A DNA stretch of 64,000 bases from Daejeonella lutea (GTDB lineage Bacteria > Bacteroidota > Bacteroidia > Sphingobacteriales > Sphingobacteriaceae), in assembly GCF_900168015.1 (NCBI RefSeq), contig NZ_FUYR01000003.1, forward strand, positions 124,001 through 188,000, given 5' to 3'. This document shows positions 42,200 to 45,331 of this stretch, piece by piece (within the stretch, counting starts at the first letter, position 1; each line of letters opens with the position of its first letter). The notes beneath the pieces are model-generated. The model was not told where the DNA came from and ran no database searches. It saw only the letters and a program-made list of their open reading frames with translations. A program made the translations under genes and the position numbers.

Positions 42200-42574
42200 C
42201 TATTGCACCGCAACCAGGTGCTCTACAACTGCATCTTTGGCCATGCTTACCATTCCAGTGTAAACGGCTCCCCGCTCAACCTGGAAAGTCCTGGTCTGGA
42301 TTTCCCCTAATATTTTTCCGGAGCTTTTGATTTCAATGGATTCAGCCTTAACTGTTCCGTTAACAGTGCCGTAAACGACAATTTCCCTTGTGTTTATATT
42401 ACCGTCGATCAGTCCATCCTCACCAACAATGAGTCCTTCGCCTATGAACAGGTCACCTTTTATATGACCATCAATTCTGACAAAAACGTCAGATTCTATT
42501 TTTCCCGTAACGACACAGCCTTTGCTGATGAGTGTGGGAGTTGCAGAAGACTGAGCGTTTTTGGAATTTCCCAT
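42200..42574 (-). CDS. Bactofilin A
   Basis: The 124-residue protein is a bactofilin (DUF583): a right-handed beta-helix seen as glycine-rich six-residue turns ISKGCVVTGKIESDVFVRID, HIKGDLFIGEGLIVGE and GTVNGTVKAESIEIKSSGKI. Bactofilins polymerise without nucleotide into membrane-bound filaments and often recruit peptidoglycan hydrolases. Here the M23 peptidase gene lies 7 bp upstream on the same strand, and a second bactofilin lies on the other arm of the locus. Confidence 0.93.
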   Translation of the reverse strand: MGNSKNAQSSATPTLISKGCVVTGKIESDVFVRIDGHIKGDLFIGEGLIVGEDGLIDGNINTREIVVYGTVNGTVKAESIEIKSSGKILGEIQTRTFQVERGAVYTGMVSMAKDAVVEHLVAVQ

Positions 42575-42581
42575 AATATTG

Positions 42582-43430
42582 TTAGTTAAAGCTTAGGTAG
42601 CTGCCGGGATTAATAGGTTTCCCATTTTTCCGGACTTCATAATGAAGGTGATTTCCGGTTGAGTGGCCTGTGGAACCAACTTGTCCGATAACCTGACCCG
42701 TATTTACAATTTGACCTTCTTTTACATTTACCTTGGATAAATGTCCGTAAAGAGTTTCTAGATTATTTTTGTGGCGTATCTTGACGCATTTACCGTATCC
42801 CTGGAACCAACCTGCAATAATTACTTTGCCATCGGCAGTGCTTTTAACCGCATCCCCCCGACGACCTTTGAAATCTATTCCAGGATGAAATTCTACCCGG
42901 CCGCGTCTTACAGGATCGCTTCTATATCCAAAGCGGGAGTTCATCACAAAGTTTGCAGGATAGCCGATAGGTGTAAATGCTATGCCCACCAAAACCTCTT
43001 CAAGCCTGTCGTTGTACAGAGCATAAGTTTCTTCAGCAGTTAACTCAGTCGCAGATTCGTTGTTGCCGCCGACATCTTTAACTGTAAATCCTTTAATACC
43101 TCTTTTTATCAGGTACTGGTTAATTTTCTTAAGCTTGTCTTCAATATTCTGAATGTAATTACGCGCTTGCGTAGTATCCGCGGCTACAGGGATCTGGCTT
43201 TTCAAGTGTGCGATTTCCCGTGCATATGCAATACGTTCCTGCTTGATCTTGCTGATCTCAAGCGAAAGAAAAATAATTGTAACTGTTAATAGAAGAAGAG
43301 TTAAACAAATTGTAAAAGCGTATTGCTTAATGCGGTTTATGTGCTTTGTTTTGACACGGAGGGATTTAGTTTCCCCTTTTGTAGTGCCAACGACCAACAC
43401 TGTGCTGAAATCGGATTTAGAAACTATCAT
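42582..43430 (-). CDS. Membrane-anchored LytM/M23 peptidoglycan endopeptidase
   Basis: A short basic cytoplasmic tail (residues 1-35, KTKHINRIKQ) precedes a single membrane span (about 37-57), a coiled coil (about 58-105) and a LytM domain (about 165-275). Zinc ligands stand in RVEFHPGIDFKGRRGD (His and Asp) and GNHLHYEVR (HxH); TLYGHLS carries the third catalytic-type His. It resembles the M23 partners of bactofilins such as Csd1 in Helicobacter and LmdC-type proteins. It opens the operon with bactofilin A and is divergent from the actin-like gene (261 bp between starts). Confidence 0.93.
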   Translation of the reverse strand: MIVSKSDFSTVLVVGTTKGETKSLRVKTKHINRIKQYAFTICLTLLLLTVTIIFLSLEISKIKQERIAYAREIAHLKSQIPVAADTTQARNYIQNIEDKLKKINQYLIKRGIKGFTVKDVGGNNESATELTAEETYALYNDRLEEVLVGIAFTPIGYPANFVMNSRFGYRSDPVRRGRVEFHPGIDFKGRRGDAVKSTADGKVIIAGWFQGYGKCVKIRHKNNLETLYGHLSKVNVKEGQIVNTGQVIGQVGSTGHSTGNHLHYEVRKNGKPINPGSYLSFN

Positions 43431-43691: not shown

Positions 43692-44708
43692 ATGTTTGCA
43701 ATTCAGTCGTTTTCAAGCCTAATAGAAAACAGTAACTCTAACCTTAGCAATACATCAAAAGACCTGTTAAACGGTTTGAAAATCTTCCATGAAAATCAGT
43801 GGTATATCTGTGGAAACCTGGCATTAAATGAGGGGCAGTTGCCTCATAAGTTAATAAACTCTTCGCCAGCCGATTTAGACTATCAATTGTTGGTAAAATC
43901 AGGACTCTTGCTTGTCGCTGATTCGGTAGAGCAGCCACTAACGATCACCACTGGCTTCCCGTATTCTACATACCGAATTTACAAAGACATGGCTACGGAT
44001 TTTCTGAAGAAAACCCACATTATCGAATTTGACGCATCAACCCATAGCAGCAGCGCTAAACGTTCTGTTATCCTTGATGTGAATAATGTAGAAGTTATCC
44101 CTGAAATTGTTGGCTGTACAATTGCGCTGAGGAAAGGTGAGCAGCAGGCTGATGGAAATTTTTTCGTCCTCAGTTGCGGCTTCGGAACTTTTGAGTCGGT
44201 ACTCAGTATGGATTCAGGTATTGTTGAGCAAACGATGGTTAGTACGCATGGATTAAAATATGCAGTGAACATGCTTATTAGTGAGCTTGAAAAAACCCAC
44301 TACCTTGGATTCAGGAATGCACACCTTGTTGACGAGGCCTTCCAAAAAGGTTACATTATTCTCAACAGGAAGAATGTTGATCTGAGGGAAATGAGAAGAA
44401 ATGTTCTGAGATCATACTACAATGAAGTTATCTCTCCGAATTTAAGGAATGTGATAACTGACCAGAATTTAATGAAAGCAAACAAAGTATATCTGTGCGG
44501 AGGTGCGATGTACTATCAGGATCTTGTTGATTGTTTCAAAAATGAATTTGGAGAAGTCGCAGAGTTGGAATTTGTAGCTGATCCGGCAACACTTGCCAGT
44601 AAAGGATATGCGCTCAATTCGCTTCGTGTCTCAGGCGGGAAGAAAAATTCTTCCGTAGGACTAGACATTGGTAATGCAACTACAGTAGTAACGACAATAA
44701 AAGAATGA
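43692..44708 (+). CDS. Actin/ParM-like ATPase, apparently circularly permuted
   Basis: The 338-residue protein shows ParM/StbA-like actin motifs in shifted order. Residues 37-50 (WYICGNLALNEGQ) and 83-92 (LTITTGFPYS) match subdomain I segments; phosphate-2 is NFFVLSCGFGTFESVLSMDSG (156-176); the adenosine motif is KVYLCGGAMYYQDLV (265-279); connect-2 is VADPATLASKGYALNSL (295-311). The phosphate-1 motif, normally at the N-terminus, reads SVGLDIGNATTVVTTI and lies at 321-336, the very end. The N-terminal MFAIQSFSSLIE would normally follow phosphate-1. No other phosphate-1 exists. The stop overlaps the bactofilin B start by 4 bp (ATGA). The first Asp of phosphate-2 appears changed. Nucleotide binding and filament formation are inferred. 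Confidence 0.8.
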   Translation: MFAIQSFSSLIENSNSNLSNTSKDLLNGLKIFHENQWYICGNLALNEGQLPHKLINSSPADLDYQLLVKSGLLLVADSVEQPLTITTGFPYSTYRIYKDMATDFLKKTHIIEFDASTHSSSAKRSVILDVNNVEVIPEIVGCTIALRKGEQQADGNFFVLSCGFGTFESVLSMDSGIVEQTMVSTHGLKYAVNMLISELEKTHYLGFRNAHLVDEAFQKGYIILNRKNVDLREMRRNVLRSYYNEVISPNLRNVITDQNLMKANKVYLCGGAMYYQDLVDCFKNEFGEVAELEFVADPATLASKGYALNSLRVSGGKKNSSVGLDIGNATTVVTTIKE

Positions 44709-45331
44709 CAGGGAAGGCAGTAAATTTTATTCAGAAGTTTCTAAATAAAAAGCACAGCCGGCAAGAGATTATTGCAGATTTTCATACCACAATTATTCGT
44801 GTGGATGACAATTTTATTTCATCAAGCTCAATCATCCTTGATGAAATATTAAGGGGTAATATCTACTCTTTAAAAGAAGTTATAGTAGCCGGAACAGCTG
44901 AAATTACAGGAAACGTTACATCCAGGACAGCCTCGATCAGTGGCAAGGTTTACGGTGATATCATTTCGATAGATTACGCTGATATAAAAAGTACTGCTGT
45001 GATATCCGGTCATATCCGCGCAAGTTCGATATCTATAGAGCCAGGTGCCGTAATAAACGGATCCATTCGCATCGAAGGCAATATCGATGAACGAGACCTT
45101 ATTGAAAAAGTTGAGAACAGGCTCCCTTCCCCAAAAGTGAAGGAGCCTGCTTTCCTCACTTATATTATTCCTGAGGAAGTTTCAGACCTTGAAGCCCCAG
45201 TTAAACCCGAAATAAGACCGGCTGAAATTAATAAAAGGCCTGGTGCTACCGTCTCGCTTAAAACTAAGACTGCAAAGTCCTCCGATCCTGAGCAGGAAGG
45301 AAAACATGCTGCGCCGACTAGCTGGTACTAG
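44705..45331 (+). CDS. Bactofilin B with C-terminal tail
   Basis: A bactofilin beta-helix spans about residues 30-125 (SSSIILDEILRGNIYSLKEV, AGTAEITGNVTSRTASISGK, GHIRASSISIEPGAVINGSI). An 80-residue Pro/Lys-rich disordered tail follows, ending in APTSWY, which could bind partners. The N-terminus has an amphipathic basic segment (FIQKFLNKKHSR) suited to membrane contact. Its start overlaps the actin-like gene, so both proteins should be made together in comparable amounts. Confidence 0.92.
   Translation: MTGKAVNFIQKFLNKKHSRQEIIADFHTTIIRVDDNFISSSSIILDEILRGNIYSLKEVIVAGTAEITGNVTSRTASISGKVYGDIISIDYADIKSTAVISGHIRASSISIEPGAVINGSIRIEGNIDERDLIEKVENRLPSPKVKEPAFLTYIIPEEVSDLEAPVKPEIRPAEINKRPGATVSLKTKTAKSSDPEQEGKHAAPTSWY

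Follow-up and report, generated by a model that had tools for sequence, protein, structure and literature searches.

Probable circular permutation of a ParM/StbA-type actin encoded beside a bactofilin gene in Daejeonella lutea

The phosphate-1 motif is located at the N-terminus in actin, MreB, FtsA and ParM. In the window analysed here, a stretch of 64,000 nucleotides of Daejeonella lutea, an actin-like protein of 338 residues is encoded (43692..44708, + strand), in which the phosphate-1-type sequence VGLDIGNATT occupies residues 322–331, after the phosphate-2-like, adenosine-type and connect-2-like segments. The next gene encodes a bactofilin. The locus raises the question of whether the protein is a natural circular permutant of an actin, and what such a protein would do together with a bactofilin. 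No description of a natural permuted actin was found in open-access titles and the beginnings of abstracts, a scope that excludes subscription papers and bioRxiv. In the accessible parts of the related papers, the term 'permut' is absent from PMC12270681 on chromosomal ParMs, and permutation is mentioned in PMC1079889 only in general terms. PMC7203096 contains both 'circularly permuted' and 'actin-like', neither of which occurs in its first 300,000 characters.

The ORF is present as a single copy in the D. lutea genome, and all the features given in this paragraph are on the + strand. The new N-terminus (residues 1–30, 43692..43781) corresponds to the ParM segment that follows the phosphate-1 hairpin (FPSV...). 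The connect-1-type glutamate Glu138 (44103..44105) is followed by the phosphate-2-like motif (residues 157–176, 44160..44219; residues 157–173 are FFVLSCGFGTFESVLSM) and by the Gly-Gly of the adenosine motif (residues 270–271, 44499..44504). The connect-2-like segment ASKGYALNS (residues 302–310, 44595..44621) was assigned by alignment to the relatives and ParM. According to the profile alignment, a short linker (residues 312–321, 44625..44654) would bridge the two original termini, and the chain closes with the phosphate-1 hairpin (residues 322–335, VGLDIGNATTVVTT, 44655..44696), as indicated by conservation, Pfam and profile alignment. The translation confirmed the motif order of the original prediction, in which phosphate-2, Gly270-Gly271 and connect-2 precede the C-terminal VGLDIGNATT. 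The phosphate-2 motif is present at the predicted place, but its usual aspartate is absent, the residue being Ser161. An in-frame stop codon is located 4 codons 5' of the start Met, and the open frame comprises 342 residues. This leaves no room for an in-frame phosphate-1 at the N-terminus. Three of the four canonical ParMs compared end no more than a dozen or so residues from the place equivalent to connect-2. In the proposed arrangement, the linker of about 10 residues would lead from the old C-terminus (the connect-2 helix) into the phosphate-1 hairpin that was formerly N-terminal. The new termini would open between this hairpin and the next strand.

The actin-like identity of the window protein was examined by several searches. 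In Pfam, only a sub-threshold match to MreB-like_C was detected, with 17.4 bits (E = 0.0071) for the encoded sequence and 22.2 bits after re-joining, compared with the cut-off of 27.8. Among 18 sequences of the family, ALP_N was matched at E ≤ 0.1 in 16 (best E = 2.8e-11) and MreB-like_C in 15, and MreB_Mbl stayed below its cut-off, the best E among the native sequences being 0.1 in one of 18. The NCBIfam matches were mostly weak, apart from PRTRC_D. A tblastn search of plasmids with the window protein gave five matches at E ≤ 1 (best E = 3e-3), and all five are annotated as ParM/StbA. Two AlphaFold runs, whose alignments were limited to seven similar sequences, resulted in mean pLDDT values of 44.2 and 40.6, with about 21–23 for the C-terminal hairpin. 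In the Foldseek search with the first, poor model, ranks 1–3 were ParM (6ixw twice and 8x1i; best 6ixw, E = 2.1e-3), rank 4 was an Hsc70 chain and rank 5 was Ta0583; no match reached E = 0.001. Because the AlphaFold models are poor, the putative actin fold is assigned by homology. Profile searches against PDB sequences gave weak matches. The re-joined profile also matched Fusion glycoprotein (E = 0.03), in each case over a pair of short stretches of weak similarity that we regard as chance.

The permutation was tested by aligning a native profile of 65 relatives against nine plasmid ParM/StbA sequences, which are not an unbiased sample because four were found with the window protein itself; the other five were found with one of those four. 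The main alignment covers positions 5–316 of the native profile and 29–328 of ParM (score 181.0, E = 5.2e-25), and a second piece aligns the C-terminus, 320–335, to ParM 5–20 (score 26.6, probability 3.9%). When the hairpin was moved to the front, a single collinear alignment of 2–327 to 7–323 was obtained, with a score of 199.8 and E = 9.7e-28. Eight controls with scrambled hairpin columns scored 180.6–182.6. The true hairpin thus adds 18.8 score units, and the scrambled hairpins add at most 1.6. A smaller test with HMMER was in agreement. On the Thermoanaerobacterium ParM, the native profile scored 55.7 bits, its hairpin being matched separately and in the wrong order (−3.5 bits alone), and the re-joined profile scored 57.7 bits in one alignment. 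The gain was 0.2 and 1.0 bits for two other ParMs, in which the hairpin was not reached, and a fourth ParM was matched by neither profile.

The Pfam coordinates are consistent with these alignments. In all four canonical plasmid ParMs, the ALP_N match starts at profile position 1, and the new N-terminus of the relatives aligns to ALP_N from about position 17 onward. Four of the five native relatives scanned match ALP_N above the gathering score from position 17–21 (L043, 39.7 bits; L049, 40.7; L028, 39.1; L052, 31.6). After the C-terminal 19 residues had been moved to the front, the matches start at position 1 with 48.0, 50.5, 48.4 and 38.9 bits, respectively. Shuffling of the moved hairpin gave 42.9, 40.2 and 40.8 bits for L043, and 41.2, 40.7 and 41.3 bits for L049. 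The fifth relative, L042, and the window protein lack an ALP_N match in either arrangement; among 11 re-joined sequences, 9 match it. In 247 sampled Bacteroidota genomes, all nine ALP_N matches start at position 16–21, and no match in the canonical order was detected at that search sensitivity. The original prediction had proposed a permuted actin akin to ParM/StbA, and had suggested checking whether the hairpin gives a continuous match when joined to the N-terminus. The nearest matches in the plasmid tblastn and Foldseek searches are ParM/StbA, and the continuous ParM match exceeds the scrambled controls. According to the profile–profile alignment, the ALP_N coordinates and the conservation described below, the window protein is almost certainly a ParM/StbA-type actin with a naturally occurring circular permutation.

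The 65 sequences are non-identical full-length relatives, that is, members of at least 200 residues for which the locus sequence was retrieved. Matches for which no locus was retrieved were left out, for example second copies in G353, G399, G123 and G133, seven rows of family f15, and two sequences with one flagged stop each, possibly the terminal one (G795 and G868). Partial matches (G252, G317, G1063 and G740) and 98-residue remnants (G008 and G012) were likewise left out. The search of Bacteroidota for the same motif order showed that phosphate-1 is C-terminal in 65/65. Homologues with a further N-terminal phosphate-1, which would speak against the permutation, were sought by pattern in the same 65 sequences, and no convincing case was found. 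A loose N-terminal match in L063, AEDVGTKPIS, was judged to be chance. The upstream stop is located 1–47 codons from the start (median 7), and fewer than 10 codons from it in 42 of the relatives. In the alignment A3 (18 sequences including 17 relatives, down to 39% identity), Gly323, Asp325, Gly327 and Asn328 are invariant. Since these residues are invariant in 18 sequences and the motif is C-terminal in every relative, the C-terminal motif is more than chance. The dN values against five relatives are 0.04–0.18, and dS is saturated; the gene is under purifying selection.

The 65 proteins fall into nine families of the phylum (numbered by the tool), and the permuted order is common to a diverse family and is not a feature of one frameshifted gene. 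The five closest relatives in named records (88–93% identity) belong to four Daejeonella and one Sphingobacteriales MAG, and a Mucilaginibacter relative shows 75% identity. The distribution across Bacteroidota is patchy. Among 399 Sphingobacteriaceae genomes sampled, 34 carry the family (four as partial matches only). It was also detected in 6 of 395 genomes of the class sample (one match weak) and in 24 of 395 genomes of the phylum sample (one a fragment); these samples overlap, and the D. lutea genome is counted in several. The weak match of the class sample, in G740, was absent at E ≤ 0.1 when the A5 profile was used. In the families f50 and f15, the permuted actin occurs in 3 of 17 and 19 of 148 genomes, respectively. 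No relatives were found in the phage collection, and none was confirmed in viral contigs. The permutation is probably old within Bacteroidota. In two genomes of the window's genus (G012 and G008; loci L007, L008 and L018), a 98-residue actin remnant matches residues 1–34 and about 275–336, so that the ends are kept and the middle is missing. The remnant still sits between bactofilins and the M23 gene, and the bactofilins of these genomes outlive the actin. Another genome, G890, has two permuted-actin paralogues (L064 and L120), each with its own downstream bactofilin.

The partner bactofilin (208 residues, 44705..45331, + strand) matches PF04519 over residues 36–121 with 60.1 bits against the cut-off of 27.9, and its start overlaps the actin stop in the sequence ATGA (44705..44708, +). 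A divergent M23 peptidase gene (282 residues, 42582..43430, − strand) is located upstream of the actin, together with a gene of a second bactofilin (124 residues, 42200..42574, −) that ends HLVAVQ, without a Trp end. These two are the only bactofilin matches in the D. lutea genome. Bactofilins are rare, with one to four matches per genome in the nine genomes checked. The original prediction had suggested a coupling with the adjacent bactofilin, and this idea is strengthened by the relatives. In 37 of 65, from several families and more than one class, the actin is followed within 1 kb by a bactofilin gene of the same strand, and in the other 28 none was found within this distance. Twelve of the 65 have an M23 gene no more than 1.3 kb upstream. 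Among 40 loci with wide flanks, searched with a model derived from the bactofilins of the window and the matches to them, the bactofilin domain begins less than 500 bases downstream in 21 and is present somewhere in the flank in 26. Bactofilin and M23 genes are also close together at L094, L100, L122, L124 and L126. At three loci of family f83, the actin is preceded by an M23 gene and separated from the bactofilin by a gene of 375–377 residues; the one intervening protein scanned, at L122, is a TPR protein. On the actin tree, the bactofilin label needs six changes, five of which are forced by well-supported branches, with some deeper forks being uncertain. The permutation itself may bring about the coupling. 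The partner bactofilin begins with a basic and hydrophobic peptide, and several partners in the relatives likewise start with hydrophobic/basic peptides when inspected by eye, such as MLNIFKKE and MLKLFKRG. In the accessible part of PMC12448750, the bactofilin BacA binds membranes through a short N-terminal peptide, and bactofilin–M23 gene pairs are known in morphogenesis according to that of PMC10945521.

Some members of the family have other neighbours. The genomes G230 (clade II) and G299 (clade III) carry the actin without any bactofilin match. Clade II (L035–L041; wide loci L095–L097) shows a recurring gene order with no bactofilin neighbour: a response-regulator-type protein with an RWW end, the actin, a HEAT-like protein of about 360 residues, a family 2 glycosyltransferase, a TPR and YaiO-type beta-barrel protein and, by eye, the start of an epimerase-like protein. 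In clade III (L042–L048), the actin chain extends further beyond the phosphate-1 motif, and no bactofilin gene is immediately downstream in the five wide loci examined.

The partner bactofilin of the window ends in SWY (45320..45328, + strand). The chain terminates in W in 31 of the 37 partner bactofilins, in WY in five and in F in one. A W or WY end was found in none of 36 complete bactofilins of actin-carrying genomes encoded elsewhere than in the 1 kb downstream of an actin, a set of 30 out of 59 listed places plus six unpaired ones, from which three partner pieces cut by the locus end were dropped and of which at least seven lie near an actin in another arrangement. None of the best 30 bactofilins listed for the class sample has such an end. 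Fisher tests of the partners against the others gave 4e-20 and 5e-27 (3e-18 with the first 30 only), values that are overstated because the 37 paired bactofilins are related by descent. Each of the seven clade II relatives that lack a bactofilin neighbour is immediately preceded by an ORF ending in RWW (a shorter ORF at L039), and the two such proteins scanned have a response-regulator receiver domain. In family f50 (L050–L052), with no bactofilin nearby, all three actins carry a Pro/Ala-rich tail of about 95 residues ending in MW or TW. These tails, which end in FLKTGMW or FLISGTW, are probably disordered. FtsA has a linker and an amphipathic end, of which the f50 tail is reminiscent. Among 414 other ORFs in the wide loci, seven end in W, WY or WF, and three of them are the RWW regulators. 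No Trp-ended neighbour was found in clade III, f85, part of f90, one f15 locus and the f83 loci. Family f88 breaks the rule: its bactofilins end in LIF at L127 and LFF at L125, the latter about 1 kb from the actin and outside the 37 pairs.

ParR docks on ParM through its C-terminal peptide. By analogy with this binding, the Trp tail of the bactofilin may contact the permuted actin, an assignment that we hold at a little under even chances; the tail might also bind a third protein or the membrane. A broader reading, that the permuted actin is a hub recognising a portable Trp tail on the bactofilin, on a response regulator or on its own C-terminus, is a tentative one. If it is true, the same filament could be connected with remodelling of the cell wall, with signalling or with itself, the permutation freeing a surface on which the tail docks.

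The phosphate-2 aspartate is replaced in all 65 relatives, by Ser in 62 (three of them read by eye from alignment rows), Gly in two and Asn in one. It is present in the four canonical ParMs compared, and Asp195 is invariant in a ParM alignment. The adenosine Gly-Gly is kept in 65/65, and Glu138 does not vary among the 18 rows of A3 or the 12 rows of A5. The phosphate-2 aspartate of actin helps to position Mg and the catalytic water; thus slow or no hydrolysis would be expected, and the missing residue could mean no ATPase activity. The permuted actin would bind nucleotide and polymerise in a nucleotide-driven manner. Because the aspartate is lost throughout, hydrolysis is probably slow, and the filaments would be stable or switch-like. 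The actin and the co-produced, membrane-tethered bactofilin would form a scaffold that places a cell-wall hydrolase or other envelope machinery, with the Trp-ended tail as the likeliest contact, as in the case of the ParR peptide on ParM. Such a bactofilin-linked cytoskeletal role is reasonably probable.

Other explanations were weighed against this one. There may be no permutation, with VGLDIGNATT as a chance motif and the true phosphate-1 lost or encoded in a missed upstream frame, as the failure of AlphaFold to place the C-terminal hairpin would allow. However, this is very improbable, considering the C-terminal position in 65/65, the stop less than 10 codons from the Met in 42/65, and the 18.8 score units of the true hairpin against at most 1.6 for scrambled ones. 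The protein may instead be an actin-fold regulator that neither polymerises nor hydrolyses nucleotide, a switch like FtsA or Hsp70 recruiting partners to the bactofilin. The closest matches of the window protein are ParMs, which form filaments, and Glu138 and the adenosine Gly-Gly are kept; we regard such a switch as rather doubtful, even though the aspartate present in four canonical ParMs is lost in 65/65 and a weak similarity to Hsp70 exists.

A segregation motor for plasmids or chromosomes, which has the role of ParM and is permuted only incidentally, would agree with ParM/StbA as the closest sequence relatives and with the existence of chromosomal ParMs described in the accessible part of PMC12270681. 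The recurrent neighbours are, however, the bactofilin and the M23 peptidase, a bactofilin is the next gene in the window, no phage or viral matches were found, and plasmids hold only distant ParMs, so that a segregation motor is unlikely. We therefore prefer, as a likely explanation of the whole, a permuted ParM/StbA-type actin that works with the bactofilin as an envelope scaffold.

The occurrence of the permutant in nine families of one phylum indicates that the actin fold tolerates new termini. In the permuted actin, nature has provided a test of which ends are important for filaments. Standard domain scans show it only as a truncated match or not at all. The gene pair suggests a concrete link from an actin-type to a bactofilin-type cytoskeleton, and the two proteins offer a new route to studying bacterial shape.

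Among the known systems, ParM/StbA (ALP_N PF17989 and MreB-like_C PF21522) shows a profile match to the permuted actins over nearly the whole length, with the adenosine Gly-Gly, the connect-1 glutamate and the phosphate-1 residues kept. The closest ParM-type structures are Dh-cParM1 (8x1i) and pCBH ParM (6ixw), and Ta0583 (2fsj) is also similar. The permuted actins differ from ParM/StbA in the C-terminal phosphate-1, in the phosphate-2 aspartate, which is mostly Ser, and in the next gene, which is often that of a bactofilin. FtsA and MreB belong to the same actin superfamily, whereas their motif order differs and their matches are below the Pfam cut-offs; the C-terminus of L049 matches the start of PF14450 (FtsA) at E = 0.005, also below the cut-off. 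PRTRC system protein D (TIGR03739), which we take to be StbA-like, matches 2 of 12 native relatives (best E = 5e-8) and 3 of 11 re-joined ones (best E = 1.9e-8), and its motif order also differs from that of the permuted actins. FcmB, a cyanobacterial actin-like family tied to cell morphology in the accessible part of PMC12645912, matches 1 of 12 relatives (E = 5.5e-4); 'permut', 'bactofilin' and 'Bacteroid' are absent from the main text of that paper as far as it was accessible. In BacA–LmdC of Hyphomonas neptunium, bactofilin and M23 genes are close together, as at 42200–43430 of the window, and the 'actin' passages in the accessible part of PMC10945521 deal with MreB or with the cytoskeleton in general, or are instances of the word 'acting'. 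Compared with BacA–LmdC, the D. lutea locus adds an actin-like gene.
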